NCBI GenBank assembly: GCA_002309195.1
Contig: DBWY01000003.1
Location: 98,135-162,134, forward strand
Direction: 5' to 3'
Source of the DNA: Treponema sp. UBA1226
GTDB taxonomy: Bacteria; Spirochaetota; Spirochaetia; Treponematales; Treponemataceae
Length of the DNA stretch: 64,000 bases
In this document: positions 17,195 through 45,384 of the stretch, one piece after another
Numbering within the stretch: position 1 is the stretch's first letter
Layout of the letters: each line of letters begins with the position of its first letter
Notes under the pieces: generated by a model
Told to the model about the DNA's origin: nothing
Seen by the model: the letters and a program-made list of their open reading frames with translations, nothing else
Databases searched by the model: none
Position numbers and translations under genes: made by a program

Positions 17195-18280
17195 TCAGAT
17201 AAAATTTACATCGCTTGCAGAAATTTCATCTTTTCTTGAACATATTGTTGCCATCTTTATGCATGTCTGAAGTTCACGGATATTACCCGGCCAGTCGTAT
17301 GAAAGAATTTTATCTCTTGCAGAACGTGAAAGAAATTTTCTGCTGTGATCTTTTATATTAATCATATCAATAAAATAATCTGCAAGAAGAAGAATATCTT
17401 CTTTTCGCTCTTTTAAAGGCGGAATCTCTATAATAAACTCCGCGATTCTCCAGTACAGATCTTCGCGGAACTGTTTTTCTTTTACCATGTTCTTTAAATC
17501 TTTGTTTGTTGCAAAAACAAAACGTGCAGATGTTTTTTCTTCTTTATCGCTTCCTACTTTTCTGTAAATACCTTCATCAAATATGCGAAGAAGTTTTATC
17601 TGACACTCAAGTGGAAGCTCACCAATCTCATCAAGAAAAATGATTCCGTCTTCTGCAATGGCTATAAGTCCTTTTCTGTCTGTTGCATCGGTATAGGCTC
17701 CTTTAACAGAACCGAACAGCGTAGTTTCTACAAGATCTTTCTGGAGTGCACCGACATTAAGGCTTACAAGTTTTTTATCTTTGTATATGCCTGCTTTATG
17801 AAGCGCATGAACAGAACTTGATTTACCGGTTCCGCTTTCGCCTAAAAACAGAACCTTACACTCCTTGTCCTTAACATGATAGATTTTACGCTTTAATTGT
17901 TTAATCTGCTCACAGTTTCCGATGATACCAGAAAAAGCTCTGTTCCTTCTTATCTCATCATCAAATTCTTCATCGAAATTCTTTTTTATTCTTTCGATTT
18001 TAGAGGGAGCCTTCTTTGATTCAGCTTCGACAAAATCAGAAACAAAATTTATCGAGCTTACAGGAAGATCTTTGTAAAGATTTACGCTTTTTCTGTCACG
18101 AAACAGCGAATATGAAAAATCTGTAAATGTGGCATTTTCCAGAATACGTTTTTTCTCTGCGTCAGAAATATTTTTTTCCTGATTAAGGAAAACCATTTTC
18201 GAACTTTCATCGACCAGATAACGACAAAAAGTATTCAGTTCAGGGTTATCCTGATTTAATGAATAAAAAACTTTCTCCAA
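17195..18280 (-). CDS. Sigma-54-activator-like AAA+ protein with altered GAFTGA loop and no DNA-binding domain
   Basis: This 361-residue protein has about 100 N-terminal residues without a recognised domain, then an AAA+ core of the bacterial enhancer-binding type: Walker A GESGTGKS, Walker B IIFLDEIGELPLE, and the C-terminal WPGNIRELQ. The sigma-54-contacting loop reads GAYTDA instead of GAFTGA. The protein stops at SASDVNFI, directly after the AAA+ lid, so the usual Fis-type helix-turn-helix is absent. It may act from solution on sigma-54, or on another target. The start used is a TTG, as no ATG fits; it is uncertain. It lies 27 bases after the glycosyltransferase gene. Confidence 0.75.
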   Translation of the reverse strand: MEKVFYSLNQDNPELNTFCRYLVDESSKMVFLNQEKNISDAEKKRILENATFTDFSYSLFRDRKSVNLYKDLPVSSINFVSDFVEAESKKAPSKIERIKKNFDEEFDDEIRRNRAFSGIIGNCEQIKQLKRKIYHVKDKECKVLFLGESGTGKSSSVHALHKAGIYKDKKLVSLNVGALQKDLVETTLFGSVKGAYTDATDRKGLIAIAEDGIIFLDEIGELPLECQIKLLRIFDEGIYRKVGSDKEEKTSARFVFATNKDLKNMVKEKQFREDLYWRIAEFIIEIPPLKERKEDILLLADYFIDMINIKDHSRKFLSRSARDKILSYDWPGNIRELQTCIKMATICSRKDEISASDVNFI

Positions 18281-39826: not shown

Positions 39827-41959
39827 ATGAAGATTGCGGATATCAAAAATCCTGTTTCTACTCTTTCGGGAGCAGGTCCTGCTACAGTTAAAGCTTTATC
39901 AAACTTAAATATTTTTACAATCGGTGACCTTCTTTCTTTTTATCCGAGAGATTACGAAGACAGAAGCCACCGCGTTTCTCTAAATCAATTTGAACTTTCA
40001 AAAAAAATTCATACAGCGGCAAAAGTAATTTCTCACGAATACTTCGGCTACGGAAAAATGAAGACTCTTAAAATCATAATCCGGGACGAAACAGGTTCTG
40101 CTTCGCTTATTGCCTTTAACAGAAATTTCTTAGAAAAGTCACTCCCTGTAGGATCAATCATAAGCGTAACAGGAACTTTTGCCGTAAAATACAATGAGCT
40201 GCAGTCATCAAGCTTCGAAGCTGTCATGATAAGTCCTGACGGGAACCTTGAAGATTATAAAAATACAATTCTTCCTGACTCAGGAATAATTCCCGTTTAC
40301 CATCTTACTGCAGGAATTACAAGAAAGATTCTTACAAAGCTCATTTCTTCTGCATTAAAACAGTATGTAATTGGAATCGACAGCGAAGTTCCCGAAGATA
40401 TAATTAAAAAACGCGCTCTGCTTTCTAAAAAAGATGCGATAAAGAAAATACACCAGCCAGAAAACCTGCAGGATGTTACAGAAGCGCGAAAAACACTTAT
40501 CTATGAAGAACTTTATCTTTTTGAAAAAACAATGCTGAAAAGAGCTTACACTCATAAAGGCGCACTTCCAGGTATTGATTTTAAAGAAGATGCCAAAGAT
40601 GAAAGATGCGAAATTTCAGATACTCAGAATGACTTTTCCCCAAAACAGGCTGCCCTTCTTGAGACTCTTCCTTTTTCTCTTACAAAAGACCAGCTTGCGG
40701 TAATCTGTAAAATGAACGAAGAAATAGACAGAGGCTACAAAGAAAGAGCTTCTCTTACACAAGAATCAACTGCACCTCTTTTTACGATGCAGCGGCTATT
40801 ACAGGGAGATGTAGGCTCTGGGAAAACACTTGTTGCACTTTTTGCTTCTCTTCGTGTAATTGACTGGGGCGGTCAGGCGGTTTTTATGGCACCTACAGAA
40901 ATTCTTGCACGGCAGCACGCAGAAAACATCGCGCAGTATACAGAAAAGCTCGGTATTCGCGTTGCATTCCTTACAGGAAACGTAAAGGCTGCAGGAAGAA
41001 AAACATTGCTTAAAGCGCTCAAAGAAGGCGAAATAAATATTTTAATCGGAACACATGCAGTTTTTTCACGCGATGTAGTTTATAAAGATCTTCAGCTTGC
41101 GGTAATAGATGAACAGCACAGATTTGGAGTTTTACAGAGACAGGCGATTATCGAAAAAGGGAAGCAGCTTTTTAACAATACATACGCGTGTCCTCACCTT
41201 CTTATGATGAGCGCAACACCGATTCCGCAGACACTTGCGCTTACAGTTTTCGGAGACCTTGATATTTCTACGATAAAAACAATGCCAAAGGGAAGAAAAC
41301 CAGTAATCACATATCTTGTTTCTGAAGGACACGAACAGAATGCATACAACGCGGTGCGCCAGGAACTTGATAAAGGTCACCAGGCATATTTTGTTTATCC
41401 TGCAATCGAAGAATCAGAAGATGATACAGAAAACGAAAGCATAAAATCTGCAGAAAGAGCATTTGCAGAACTTTCGAAGAACTATTTTTCTAATTATAAA
41501 TGCGCGCTTATTCATTCAAAGATAGAAGAAGAACAACAGTCAAGAATTCTTGATGACTTTAGATACGGGAAAATCCAGCTTTTATTTGCTACGACTGTTG
41601 TAGAAGTCGGAGTTGATGTTTCAAACGCAACATGCATGGTAATAGAACAGGCAGACAGATTTGGTTTAAGCCAGCTGCATCAGCTTAGAGGACGAGTTGG
41701 ACGCGGCAGCAGTCAGGGATACTGCTTTCTCATTTACAGAAAAAATATTACCGAAAACGGAATCGAGCGCATAAAAGTTTTAAAAGAAACAACCGACGGT
41801 TTTGTAATTGCAGAAAAGGATTTAAAACTACGAGGTCCCGGAGAAATTACCGGAACAATTCAAAGCGGAGATTTACAGCTTGAAATTGCAGATTTCTCGC
41901 GAGACCACGAAATACTTCTTCTTGCAAGAGAAGATGCGCTTAAAAGTTTTTCGAATTAA
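39827..41959 (+). CDS. recG: ATP-dependent DNA helicase RecG
   Basis: RecG reverses stalled replication forks and branch-migrates Holliday junctions. The 710-residue protein has the N-terminal wedge/OB domain (KNPVSTLSGAGPATVKALSNLNIFTIGDLL near 7-36, ETGSASLIAFNR), then a superfamily 2 helicase core: Walker A QGDVGSGKTLVA, DEQHRFG, SATPIPQTLAL, and the C-terminal motifs VVEVGVDVSNATCMVIEQADRFGLSQLHQLRGRVGRG. Length is usual. GGA lies before the ATG. It ends only 3 bases from the convergent sigma factor gene, with no terminator between. Confidence 0.95.
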   Translation: MKIADIKNPVSTLSGAGPATVKALSNLNIFTIGDLLSFYPRDYEDRSHRVSLNQFELSKKIHTAAKVISHEYFGYGKMKTLKIIIRDETGSASLIAFNRNFLEKSLPVGSIISVTGTFAVKYNELQSSSFEAVMISPDGNLEDYKNTILPDSGIIPVYHLTAGITRKILTKLISSALKQYVIGIDSEVPEDIIKKRALLSKKDAIKKIHQPENLQDVTEARKTLIYEELYLFEKTMLKRAYTHKGALPGIDFKEDAKDERCEISDTQNDFSPKQAALLETLPFSLTKDQLAVICKMNEEIDRGYKERASLTQESTAPLFTMQRLLQGDVGSGKTLVALFASLRVIDWGGQAVFMAPTEILARQHAENIAQYTEKLGIRVAFLTGNVKAAGRKTLLKALKEGEINILIGTHAVFSRDVVYKDLQLAVIDEQHRFGVLQRQAIIEKGKQLFNNTYACPHLLMMSATPIPQTLALTVFGDLDISTIKTMPKGRKPVITYLVSEGHEQNAYNAVRQELDKGHQAYFVYPAIEESEDDTENESIKSAERAFAELSKNYFSNYKCALIHSKIEEEQQSRILDDFRYGKIQLLFATTVVEVGVDVSNATCMVIEQADRFGLSQLHQLRGRVGRGSSQGYCFLIYRKNITENGIERIKVLKETTDGFVIAEKDLKLRGPGEITGTIQSGDLQLEIADFSRDHEILLLAREDALKSFSN

Positions 41960-41962
41960 AAA

Positions 41963-42799
41963 TTAAGCAACATAAGTTTCGAGTATTCTGCTTCTTGCAG
42001 GATGCTGGAGTCTTACGATTGCATGTTTTTCGATCTGACGGATTCTTTCTTTTGTAAGATTACATACATCACCGATTTCTTTTAATGACATCGGTTTGTC
42101 TCCATCAAGACCATATCTTAAACGGATTACTTTCTGTTCATTAGGTTTTAAAGAATCAAGCACATCGTTGATATCATCTTTCATTGAAGAATTGATTACA
42201 TCTTCATCAGGATTTCCGTAGCGACTTTCTTCGATAAAGTCACCGATTGAAGAAGAATTATCGTCTTTACCAACAGATGCATCAAGAGAAATAAATTCTT
42301 TTGAAAGATTAAGCATATCGCGGATATGAGAAGGTTCAAGATTTAAAAGTGAACCAATCTCGCGTATTTCCTGTTCTTCTGTCTTGTTGTGACCGACAAT
42401 CTTTTTTGCGTTTTTAATCTGATTCAACTCGTTAACGCGGTTAAGAGGAAGTCTTATGCGAGAACCTTTTTCGCTGATTGCTTTTGTAATGCTCTGACGG
42501 ATCCACCATACTGCGTAAGAAATAAAATGATATCCTTTTGAAACATCAAAGCGATCGATTGCAGTCATAAGTCCGATGTTTCCTTCGCTTATGAGATCTG
42601 TAAGTTCAAGACCGCGGTTCTGATATTTTTTTGCAACATTTACGACAAAGCGCAGGTTGGATCTGACGATTTTATCTTTTGCTGCTTTAGAACCGTTCTG
42701 GGCTTCGAGCGCAAGAGCAGTTTCTTCTTCACGTGTTAAAAGCGGAATCGAATTAATTTCTTTGAGGTAGATTCCTAAGATTTCGTCGTCGTATTTCAT
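41963..42799 (-). CDS. Group-2 sigma-70-family factor (RpoS/RpoD-like)
   Basis: This 278-residue sigma factor has regions 1.2 (ILGIYLKEINSIPLLTREEE), 2.1-2.4 (RSNLRFVVNVAKKYQNRGLELTDLISEGNIGLMTAIDRFD, FISYAVWWIRQSI), 3 and 4 (RLRYGLDGDKPMSLKEIGDVCNLTKERIRQIE). Region 1.1 and the long insertion of the primary factor are missing, so it is an alternative, RpoS-sized factor. It probably recognises promoters close to the sigma-70 consensus. GGGAG lies 6 bases before the ATG. The promoter upstream is of the sigma-54 type, with palindromic sites further up, so it is likely switched on by an enhancer-binding protein. Confidence 0.85.
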   Translation of the reverse strand: MKYDDEILGIYLKEINSIPLLTREEETALALEAQNGSKAAKDKIVRSNLRFVVNVAKKYQNRGLELTDLISEGNIGLMTAIDRFDVSKGYHFISYAVWWIRQSITKAISEKGSRIRLPLNRVNELNQIKNAKKIVGHNKTEEQEIREIGSLLNLEPSHIRDMLNLSKEFISLDASVGKDDNSSSIGDFIEESRYGNPDEDVINSSMKDDINDVLDSLKPNEQKVIRLRYGLDGDKPMSLKEIGDVCNLTKERIRQIEKHAIVRLQHPARSRILETYVA

Positions 42800-42851
42800 C
42801 GCATTCTCCCGAATTTTAATTTAAAAGCACATTGTCTTTGCCATATATCAA

Positions 42852-42866
42852 GCAAAAAGTGTGCCA
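42852..42866 (-). promoter_or_regulatory. Sigma-54 promoter of the group-2 sigma factor gene
   Basis: Minus strand: TGGCAC (42866-42861), 5 bases, TTGC followed by T (42855-42851). This equals the -24/-12 consensus of RpoN promoters in every core base. The predicted start near 42841 leaves a leader of about 42 bases with GGGAG. No good -10/-35 pair was seen here. Confidence 0.75.
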
Positions 42867-42874
42867 AGTTTTTA

Positions 42875-42928
42875 TTTTATGCTGAATCAAACAAAAAACT
42901 TCATTTTTTTACAGAATTCAGCATAAAA
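42875..42928. repeat. 13-bp inverted repeat upstream of the sigma-54 promoter
   Basis: TTTTATGCTGAAT (42875-42887) and ATTCAGCATAAAA (42916-42928) are exact complements with a 28-base loop. They lie 9-60 bases upstream of the -24 box. No T run is present, so a protein-binding site is more likely than a terminator. Confidence 0.6.
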
Positions 42929-42999
42929 ATGGAGAAATTTTACGAATTTTATTGACGTTCTGGGGATTTTTTCTTAATTTTAATATTGAATAAAGTAAG

Positions 43000-43060
43000 A
43001 CTGTAGTATTTTGACACAGTCTTTTTTTTTCGCGCTTTTACTGTGTCAGATTGACACAGT
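43000..43060. promoter_or_regulatory. Two 21-bp palindromic sites, probable upstream activator sites
   Basis: 43040-43060 reads ACTGTGTCA-N3-TGACACAGT, a perfect palindrome. 43000-43020 reads ACTGTAGTA-N3-TGACACAGT, the same geometry with one degenerate arm. Centres are 40 bp apart, about four helical turns, and lie about 170 and 210 bp upstream of the predicted sigma-54 start, the normal place for enhancers. Confidence 0.6.
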
Positions 43061-43095
43061 TCACCCTTCATAACGCAGCCCGTGTCCATGCGTTT

Positions 43096-45384
43096 CTAGT
43101 CTTTTACAATCATCAGAGAGGATTTCTGATATTCAGGGAAAAACTTTTTCGTGTCGCCGCGGCGCGATGACTCAAACTGAACTTCTATGACAAGTTCACC
43201 GTCAGAATGGCTTGATTTTACAATCTGACCGTAGCCGTAGTCATCATGATAAATTCTTGTTCCTTTTGACCATGGATTATTTTTATCTGAGCGCGAGTGA
43301 GAATTTTTATAATCAGATTCAGCATACGAGTCAAAATCGCCGGATGGAACGCCAGACACCTGGTAAACATATTCTTCTGGTTTTTCGCCTATCACGCGAA
43401 ACGGCTTGTCGCCTGCTTCGATTAAAAAGCGGCTCGGTTCCATGGCTTCTGTGCGGCCATAGAAAAGTCGTTGTGCACAGCTTGTAATATAAAGTTCGTC
43501 TTTAGCACGAGTAATTCCGACATAAAAAAGGCGGCGTTCTTCTTCGAGCTCTTCTTCGTTTTTATCCTGGCGTGGAAAGATTCCGTTTTCGAGCCCTGTA
43601 ATTATTACGCGCTCAAACTCAAGACCCTTCGTATTATGAAGTGTAATAAGCGTGACTTTGTCAGAGCTTTCATCCTCGTCATTTTCAAGAGTGCGGTCAA
43701 GCTCGATGTGATCAAGAAAACTTAAAAGTCCGTCACGCGAAAACTCATAAAAGACTGCACTGTTTACAAGTTCCTGCATGTTTGCAGCTTTCTGCGTTTC
43801 TGCAATTTCATCCTGAGCAGTATAATAATCTAAAAGTCCGGATTTATTCATTATCACGTTAACAAACTCTGATAATTTTTTTTCTTTATTTTTAGCATCG
43901 TCGATTAAATTTTTAAGTTCATCCATGAGAGAAACAAAATGGTTTACACCCTCTTTTGCTTTTTTAGAAAGACCGTCTGCATTTTTTCTGCACGACTCAA
44001 CTAAATCCGTAAGTCCCTCATCACCGATTGCAGCCTGGATTAATTTTTCCTGAGTCACTTCCCCTATTCCGCGGCTCGGCTTATTTATTATTCGCCTGAA
44101 CGACACTTCGTCTTTTGAATTGGCGACGAGGCTTAAAAAACAGAGCATGTCCTTAATCTCTTCGCGTTCATAAAAACGAAGCGTTCCCACAACCTGATAC
44201 GGAATTTTTTCCTTTAAGAAAACATGTTCAAACGTAAGTGACTGCGCGTTCGTTCTGTAAAGGATTGCCCAGTCAGAATACGGACAACCTTTTTCGTAAG
44301 ATTTTTCTATCATGTTTGCACAGAAAGAAGCCTCGTCGTCCTGATTAGGAAGAAAAACAAGCACAGGCTTTTTGCCTTCGCCGCGTTCTGCGATTAAAGT
44401 TTTTCCAAGTCTGTCTTCGTTCTGGCTTACGATTTTATCTGCAGCAAAAAGAATTTTTGATGTAGACCTGTAGTTTCTCTCAAGTCTTATGAGTGTAGTT
44501 CCTTCAAATTCATCTTCGAACGAAAGAATATTCTGAACTTCTGCGCCGCGAAATTTATAAATCGACTGATCATCATCACCTACAACGCATACATAAGTGT
44601 CAGGAGAAGAAAGCGCTTTTAATAATTTAAACTGCGCTACGTTTGAGTCCTGGTATTCATCTACCATAATTACTTTAAATCTGTAATGCATCTGGCGGCG
44701 CACTGCTTCGAATTTTTCTAAAACCATTACGGGAAGCATAATTAAATCGCCAAAGTCTACATTCCCTGTCTGGCGAAGTCTTGTCTGATAGTTTCTGTAT
44801 GCATCGCGAAATTCCTGACGGCTTGAAATTTTATCAAGTTCAATACTGTCGGGAGTATAACAGTAATCTTTTGCAAGTGATATTTTATGTGCAACTGACT
44901 GTGCCTGTTGTTTTGTTAAAGAAGGATTTGCTTTTGAAACAAGAGTTGTCATATCATCGTCGTCATAAACCGTAAAATTTTTATCGACTCCTGCTTCTTC
45001 ATAATACTTTCTTAAAAACCATGAACCGAACGAGTGAAAAGTTCTTATCATAGAATCTTTTGCACGTTCTTCCATCGAAACGGCTCTGTCCTGCATTTCC
45101 TTTGCTGCTTTTTTTGTAAACGTAACTGCAAGGATCTGATAAGGCTCGTAACCTTTCTGATTTATAAGATATGCAATCTTTGTAGTAATTACACGTGTTT
45201 TACCACTTCCTGCTCCTGCTAAAATTAAAAGAGGAGAACCGCAGTGTTCTACTGCTTTTTTCTGTTCGGAATTTAAAAGTTCAAGATATCGTTTTAATTC
45301 TAAAGATGGTTCAGAAGGTTCAAAGGGCTTTGATTTTTTCTGATTGAGATTATGAATAAAATCAAGTGCAAAATCATCACTCAT
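43096..45384 (-). CDS. pcrA: UvrD/PcrA-type ATP-dependent DNA helicase
   Basis: This 762-residue superfamily 1A helicase unwinds DNA 3' to 5' in repair and plasmid replication. It has Walker A ILAGAGSGKTRV near 57-68, DEYQDSN, VGDDDQSIYKFRGA, LERNYRS, and the later motifs VTLITLHNTKGLEFERVIITGLE and LFYVGITRAKDELY. The C-terminal 70 residues hold a Tudor-like element (GTRIYHDDYGYGQIV) as in PcrA. An upstream GTG gives a longer frame, but AGGGAGG lies 5 bases before the ATG at 45384, which I use. It directly follows rimO by 21 bases. Confidence 0.93.
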   Translation of the reverse strand: MSDDFALDFIHNLNQKKSKPFEPSEPSLELKRYLELLNSEQKKAVEHCGSPLLILAGAGSGKTRVITTKIAYLINQKGYEPYQILAVTFTKKAAKEMQDRAVSMEERAKDSMIRTFHSFGSWFLRKYYEEAGVDKNFTVYDDDDMTTLVSKANPSLTKQQAQSVAHKISLAKDYCYTPDSIELDKISSRQEFRDAYRNYQTRLRQTGNVDFGDLIMLPVMVLEKFEAVRRQMHYRFKVIMVDEYQDSNVAQFKLLKALSSPDTYVCVVGDDDQSIYKFRGAEVQNILSFEDEFEGTTLIRLERNYRSTSKILFAADKIVSQNEDRLGKTLIAERGEGKKPVLVFLPNQDDEASFCANMIEKSYEKGCPYSDWAILYRTNAQSLTFEHVFLKEKIPYQVVGTLRFYEREEIKDMLCFLSLVANSKDEVSFRRIINKPSRGIGEVTQEKLIQAAIGDEGLTDLVESCRKNADGLSKKAKEGVNHFVSLMDELKNLIDDAKNKEKKLSEFVNVIMNKSGLLDYYTAQDEIAETQKAANMQELVNSAVFYEFSRDGLLSFLDHIELDRTLENDEDESSDKVTLITLHNTKGLEFERVIITGLENGIFPRQDKNEEELEEERRLFYVGITRAKDELYITSCAQRLFYGRTEAMEPSRFLIEAGDKPFRVIGEKPEEYVYQVSGVPSGDFDSYAESDYKNSHSRSDKNNPWSKGTRIYHDDYGYGQIVKSSHSDGELVIEVQFESSRRGDTKKFFPEYQKSSLMIVKD

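Follow-up and report, generated by a model that had tools for sequence, protein, structure and literature searches.

A stress-type sigma factor of group 2, whose gene is described here, is very probably controlled by an enhancer-driven switch that depends on sigma-54, and the switch is very probably old within the spirochaete class examined. A cascade from RpoN to this second sigma factor is well supported. Circuits in which sigma-54 drives another sigma factor are already known; a strict enhancer geometry and a second target, hsp20, set this one apart. The arrangement would provide a concrete mechanism for switching on a sigma factor with known stress induction in Treponema denticola, and it predicts which DNA sequence an Rrp2-type activator would bind.

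The gene was found in the window, that is the whole stretch of 64,000 nucleotides from Treponema sp. UBA1226 that was analysed. It occupies 41963..42799 on the minus strand, as defined by its open reading frame, domain matches and orthologues, and encodes a protein of 278 residues. Matches to regions 1.2, 2, 3 and 4 extend from residue 8 on and region 1.1 is absent, which is the composition of a group-2 member of the sigma-70 family. We call this lineage family A. Proteins 100% identical to the window sigma factor occur in two sources, both labelled Treponema sp. Upstream of the gene, TGGCACACTTTTTGC (42852-42866, minus strand) fits the sigma-54 pattern TGGCAC-N5-TTGC with its near-invariant GG and GC, and is the sole exact match within the 64-kb window. 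The -24/-12 promoter as annotated, TGGCACACTTTTTGCT, spans 42851..42866 on the minus strand. The end of the match is separated from the ATG by 52 bp, which agrees with the sequence-only reading of a TGGCAC-N5-TTGCT promoter about 50 bp before a 278-residue group-2 sigma factor. Taken alone the match is weak, since four window matches were obtained with one mismatch allowed against 2.7 expected. If the promoter is used, transcription would start near 42840, a position derived from the -12 element and located 41 nt ahead of the ATG at 42799, with a predicted 5′ leader at 42800..42840 (minus strand). A sigma-70 start had been named as a possible refutation; a scan of 41800-43300 found no sigma-70-like promoter directly upstream of the ATG and three weak candidates in all, against 3.5 ± 2.0 in shuffles, and a sigma-70 promoter for this gene was rejected. 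A two-codon upstream frame, ATG-CGA-TGA (42796-42804, minus strand), overlaps the sigma start codon and may be due to chance.

Two palindromes lie further upstream. The distal one, ACTGTGTCA-N3-TGACACAGT, is exact at 43040-43060, and a proximal copy at 43000-43020 carries three mismatches; shuffles lead one to expect 0.01 such sites. Scored against TGTGTCA-N3-TGACACA, the putative distal enhancer site TGTGTCAATCTGACACA (43042..43058, minus strand) matches at 14 of 14 positions and the putative proximal site TGTGTCAAAATACTACA (43002..43018, minus strand) at 11 of 14. The centres, 43010 and 43050, are 40 bp apart, and their distances to the predicted +1 are 170 and 210 bp. Both the form (two 9-N3-9 sites, one half-degenerate) and the position of this pair had been correctly described from the letters alone. 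Remote upstream dyads of this type are a feature of NtrC-type enhancer-dependent control. The two sites had also been placed on the same helix face: the 40-bp spacing behind this statement is confirmed, but the face is only approximately the same because 40 bp corresponds to about 3.8 helix turns. The conserved feature of the pair is the number 40.

Conservation is what lifts these elements above the background. A contig scan returned 275 relatives of the sigma protein, and the best 80 loci were kept, which together with the window gives 81 upstream regions. In 80 of the 81, the pattern TGGCAY-N6-TGCW occurs no more than 150 bp from the aligned gene start, so the proposed check on related treponemes did not refute the promoter. 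The single exception, L044 from T. berlinense, lacks promoter and enhancer sites alike. A sigma-54 site of at least 10/12 is present in 73 of the 79 upstream regions with at least 300 bp, against 0.6 in shuffles. As controls, none of six sigma genes from a third group-2 lineage (L273-L278) has a sigma-54-like promoter reaching 9/12 within 150 bp, and one of 16 RpoD rows does so, in a stretch which is coding there. The neighbours of the sigma gene are not conserved among the 80 relatives: pcrA is upstream, as in the window, in three, recG is upstream in the same direction in 14 and convergent downstream in 39, and none of the four tested neighbours was found in 25.

The enhancer sites were first counted against the window consensus TGTGTCA-N3-TGACACA only, with a cut-off of 10/14. 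This yielded 153 sites in 75 of the 81 upstream regions (shuffles 9.3), so that the palindromes, too, are conserved upstream of orthologues. Together with the promoter count (73/79 versus 0.6), this conservation raises the window promoter match far above chance. The observation of promoter and palindromes in the window is correct and widely conserved. Successive sites are spaced by exactly 40 bp in 62 of 78 gaps and by 41 bp in four. Six regions have no site, two of them with less than 170 bp of upstream DNA; L005, L030 and L076 offer full upstream DNA yet have no site of at least 10/14. A PWM was then built from the sigma-gene sites, a site being admitted if it scored 12 or belonged to a 40-bp pair. 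It gave gaps of 40 bp in 69 of 83 cases and of 41 bp in seven, a count that leans towards 40 because pairing at this distance was itself an admission criterion. The consensus of the PWM sites is TGTGTCAAAATGACACA, and 13 of 76 loci carry three or more of them. A third site at the same 40-bp pitch is seen in L011 (positions -236, -196 and -156), L013, L017, L042, L053, L059 and others, the pattern to expect from three activator dimers bound in register.

The arrangement extends well beyond the closest relatives. A sigma orthologue at E 1e-80 or better is present in 239 of 274 family genomes. The class search covered 19 further genomes, of which five are Borrelia-type; the other 14 contain a family-A orthologue, 50-61% identical, and were analysed. 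A TGG..TGC site of at least 8/12 precedes the gene in all 14 and reaches at least 10/12 in 13. Among the 12 loci with a promoter score of at least 9 and at least 350 bp of upstream DNA, eight have at least two enhancer sites, separated by 40 bp (seven gaps) or 41 bp (two). In the genus of T. denticola the orthologue is found in 8/8 genomes; all eight loci also have two sites at a spacing of exactly 40 bp, one or both members of the pair scoring below 13 in six of them. The promoter is degraded in this genus: TAG replaces TGG in four of eight loci, including L168 (TDE0937), and L171 reads TGGTAT. A 1.1-Mb genome in the sample, which by gene position we take to be T. pallidum-like, keeps the promoter TGGCATGATATTTGCT, while its best enhancer score is 5.2. 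Its candidate activator has the recognition stretch IGRKTLYLK instead of IGRKTLHRK, and no hsp20 match was found in this genome. The histidine kinase gene next to the activator is split between two reading frames (L286 2443-3503, minus strand). Split kinase, changed HTH, faded enhancer and missing hsp20 match may mean that the circuit is decaying in this genome. These degraded promoters and the faded enhancer, as well as L044 and L005/L030/L076, weigh against the general reading of an enhancer-driven switch.

Published T. denticola data bear on the function of the sigma factor. Both published TDE0937 primers match the L168 sigma gene at 20/20 positions, and therefore TDE0937 is a family-A sigma factor, an orthologue of the one in the window. 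In the parts of the T. denticola study available to us (PMC2965109), TDE0937, listed as sigma-70 family, is induced 2.8-fold by heat, 21.8-fold by oxygen and 14.0-fold by osmotic downshift; TDE1029 (Hsp20) is induced 9.8-fold by heat (9.5 in another table), 8.5-fold by oxygen and 6.7-fold by osmotic downshift. Both belong to the 39 core genes induced by all three stresses (PMC2965109). The joint induction agrees with a joint stress circuit, though many chaperone genes behave alike. The same parts of that paper give no mechanism for the switching of TDE0937, and the term ‘rpoN’ has no occurrence in them. Our literature search, which left many subscription papers outside its reach, returned no sigma-54 promoter or enhancer described for a family-A sigma gene.

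Such a promoter requires RpoN and an activator. The search for rpoN, proposed with the initial observation, was run on relatives and found the gene in 10/10 genomes. In T. bryantii G002 there is one strong sigma-54-activator match; this protein has the receiver, AAA+ and Fis-type HTH modules expected of NtrC-type control, and a histidine kinase gene lies directly upstream of its own. Besides this activator, the other T. bryantii genome, G005, contains a further match at E 9.1e-53, which weighs against our interpretation. At a cut-off of E 1e-110, 242 of 274 family genomes contain an orthologue of the activator. Of 40 rows read, 36 retain IGRKTLHRK as the recognition stretch, a count in which the search pattern itself demanded part of the stretch, one of 41 loci was cut short and two genomes appear twice. 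In an activator tree of 31 rows, which leaves aside nine loci without an extracted ORF, matches without a locus, and 6/14 G279 and 2/10 G281 matches, one protein each from eleven genomes forms a single clade (96/94). The genomes are two T. bryantii, T. socranskii, that of L001, G064, the T. pallidum-like and T. denticola-like ones, G279, G281 and two Borrelia-type ones, so named on the basis of Borrelia_orfA matches. We take the Borrelia-type member of the clade to be Rrp2 because these two genomes contain no other activator at E 1e-15 or better. An activator orthologous to Rrp2, as in the Borrelia-type Rrp2-RpoN cascade, is thus found in the relatives, and the best candidate for the activator is this NtrC-type response regulator grouping with Borrelia Rrp2.

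Another sigma-54 activator could bind the sites in place of the Rrp2-type protein, for instance the GAF-type one (judged by eye) beside an S1-like gene, and we consider this unlikely. Several genomes do have more than one strong activator match (two in the T. pallidum-like genome, four in G048, ten in G281 and 14 in G279). In addition, the T. denticola kinase Hpk2 shows higher autophosphorylation when oxygen is absent, according to the parts of the report consulted (PMC12070737); as TDE0937 rises with oxygen, the sign is wrong for the simplest wiring, if Hpk2-Rrp2 is the pair in question. T. bryantii G002 argues against a different activator, as it keeps the sites with the Rrp2-type protein as its only strong match; the next is weak (E 1.2e-13), and motif-based extraction gave no activator ORF there. 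It is by this exclusion, the co-occurrence and the recognition helix that we infer binding of the Rrp2-type protein to the sites. Other activator-like proteins were noted in passing. The window encodes a sigma-54-activator-like AAA+ protein at 17195-18280 (minus strand; PF00158) that reads GAYTDA instead of GAFTGA and has no match to a Fis-type HTH. In relatives L088 and L090 a similar protein adjoins a like-named neighbour, and in L086 of T. bryantii G002 the activator-like place holds a 307-residue protein with the weak PF00158 match.

We then ask whether the sigma gene is an orthologue of Borrelia RpoS and the system simply the known Rrp2-RpoN-RpoS pathway. The orthologous activator and the sigma-54-like promoters before both sigma genes speak for it. 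In the best tree of 65 rows, on the other hand, Borrelia RpoS (five rows) groups with a second spirochaete group-2 lineage, family B (13 rows), at 100/99, and family A is a separate group of 30 rows at 100/98. A tree constrained to unite Borrelia RpoS with family A is worse by 19.27 log-likelihood units, which falls short of rejection (AU p 0.0752), and long branches prompted a warning from the tree program. Families A and B moreover occur together in nine genomes (G275, G278, G279, G281, G284, G287, G289, G290 and G292). Neither protein settles under the proteobacterial RpoS family NCBIfam TIGR02394, whose cut-off is 378.7 bits: the window sigma factor scores 255 and Borrelia-type RpoS 208. 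Family B comprises L264-L272, L186, L190, L192 and L193, the last from the T. denticola genus and on a long branch. A sigma-54-like promoter with a TGG core and at least 9/12 precedes 11 of its 13 genes; L192 scores 8 and L193 reads TAGCAC. At family B genes no TGTGTCA enhancer was found (no score above 6.4). Borrelia-type rpoS likewise has a sigma-54-like promoter in 5/5 loci and in none of them such an enhancer (best PWM score at most 7.6). Activation by Rrp2 is reportedly enhancer-independent, to judge from the title of Blevins 2009, which is cited in PMC3037356. Family A thus probably lies outside the Borrelia RpoS lineage, the alternative grouping being disfavoured, and there is little chance that the system is the known pathway itself. 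The sequence-only reading had seen an RpoN-to-RpoS layout as known from Borrelia. Sigma-54, a group-2 sigma factor and tandem sites are indeed there; the identity with Borrelia is unsupported as worded, because the sigma factor belongs to another lineage in the best tree and the enhancer has no counterpart at the five Borrelia-type rpoS loci scanned. The phrase holds as an analogy.

The second target emerged from genome scans. The strict pattern TGGCAY-N5-TTGCW was matched 7, 4 and 8 times in three genomes, and a reversed-pattern control 7, 6 and 2 times. Among these 19 matches, an enhancer score above 13 is found only at the sigma gene (3/3 genomes) and at hsp20 (2/3), the latter combining strict promoter and enhancer in both T. 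bryantii genomes (Pfam PF00011). A broad regulon was rejected, enhancer scores above 13 being restricted to these two genes among the 19 matches. The tandem 40-bp pattern with up to three mismatches returned 21 rows in ten genomes, 12 at the sigma gene (7/10 genomes; it was missed in G007, G008 and G009) and nine elsewhere, a number equalled by the reversed control. In a scan of G062 (1.98 of 2.66 Mb, the sigma gene being outside), hsp20 came up with two strong sites, and the seven remaining matches scored 10.4 or less. Hsp20 matches exist in 257 of 274 family genomes, and 50 hsp20 loci were examined: the 30 best of the list, among them several close T. bryantii kin, and 20 picked as mid-contig; three had too little upstream DNA. 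A promoter of at least 10/12 is present in 44 of 47 loci and a site with a PWM score of at least 10 in 41 of 46 (shuffles 0.55 in each case), although the PWM had been trained on sigma-gene sites and hsp20 DNA was unseen in training. At L364 neither promoter nor site is convincing. The spacing here is 23 bp (21) or 24 bp (six) in 36 gaps, and the distance from site to promoter varies widely, from 40 to 308 bp.

The hsp20 loci also bear on a reading of the palindromes as operators for a repressor or an unrelated regulator, independent of sigma-54. Perfect dyads of 17-21 bp would suit repressors as well, but the window sites are some 144 and 184 bp away from the promoter on its upstream side, which is far for a simple block, and the motif appears again ahead of another sigma-54 promoter, that of hsp20, at distances which looping allows; we regard this reading as highly improbable. 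Almost no weight attaches to the idea that the inverted repeats terminate the upstream pcrA/uvrD-like gene and that the TGGCAC match is chance: this gene ends directly upstream on the same strand, at 43096, and a T run follows the proximal repeat, albeit on the plus strand, but the terminator scan made no call there and the motif is kept in most relatives, with pcrA upstream in three of 80, and the idea was rejected.

For the enhancer-driven switch we propose the following sequence of events. On its signal, the histidine kinase would phosphorylate its partner, the NtrC-type activator (receiver, AAA+ and Fis-type HTH) orthologous to Rrp2. Activator dimers would bind the TGTGTCA-N3-TGACACA sites placed 40 bp apart, two in number and in some species three, each site taking one dimer. 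Lined up in register, these two or three dimers could then seed the AAA+ ATPase ring, which would loop to the RpoN-RNA polymerase waiting at TGGCAC-N5-TTGC and open the promoter. The sigma factor, once made, may redirect polymerase to further stress genes, and the same activator would drive hsp20 directly.

NtrC-type enhancer-dependent promoters combine a receiver-AAA+-Fis activator, remote dyad sites and a -24/-12 promoter. The treponeme system shares these three elements; unlike such promoters in general, it has two or three dyads at a fixed 40-bp pitch and a sigma factor gene as its target. With the Rrp2-RpoN-RpoS pathway of Borrelia burgdorferi it has in common a -24/-12 element before a sigma gene from broadly the same group, which RpoN would transcribe, and an activator of the Rrp2 clade. 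It differs in the sigma factor, which in the best tree comes from the other lineage (AU p 0.0752 for the alternative), and in the TGTGTCA enhancer, which Borrelia-type rpoS loci lack; there, Rrp2 and BosR control rpoS and BosR is also required, according to the parts of the source consulted (PMC3037356). The Treponema circuit is thus related to that of the Lyme disease spirochaete and apparently distinct from it. This places the Borrelia cascade in an evolutionary frame of two sigma lineages and one activator. As a tentative scenario, to which we give slightly less than even odds, ancestral spirochaetes had two parallel cascades from RpoN to a group-2 sigma factor under one Rrp2-type activator, an enhancer-driven one for family A and hsp20 and an enhancer-less one for family B; Borrelia would have kept only the latter, and many Treponema would rely on the former. 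Since the recognition helix is conserved, Borrelia Rrp2 is predicted still to be able to recognise DNA resembling TGTGTCA-N3-TGACACA, the site before the Treponema sigma gene.
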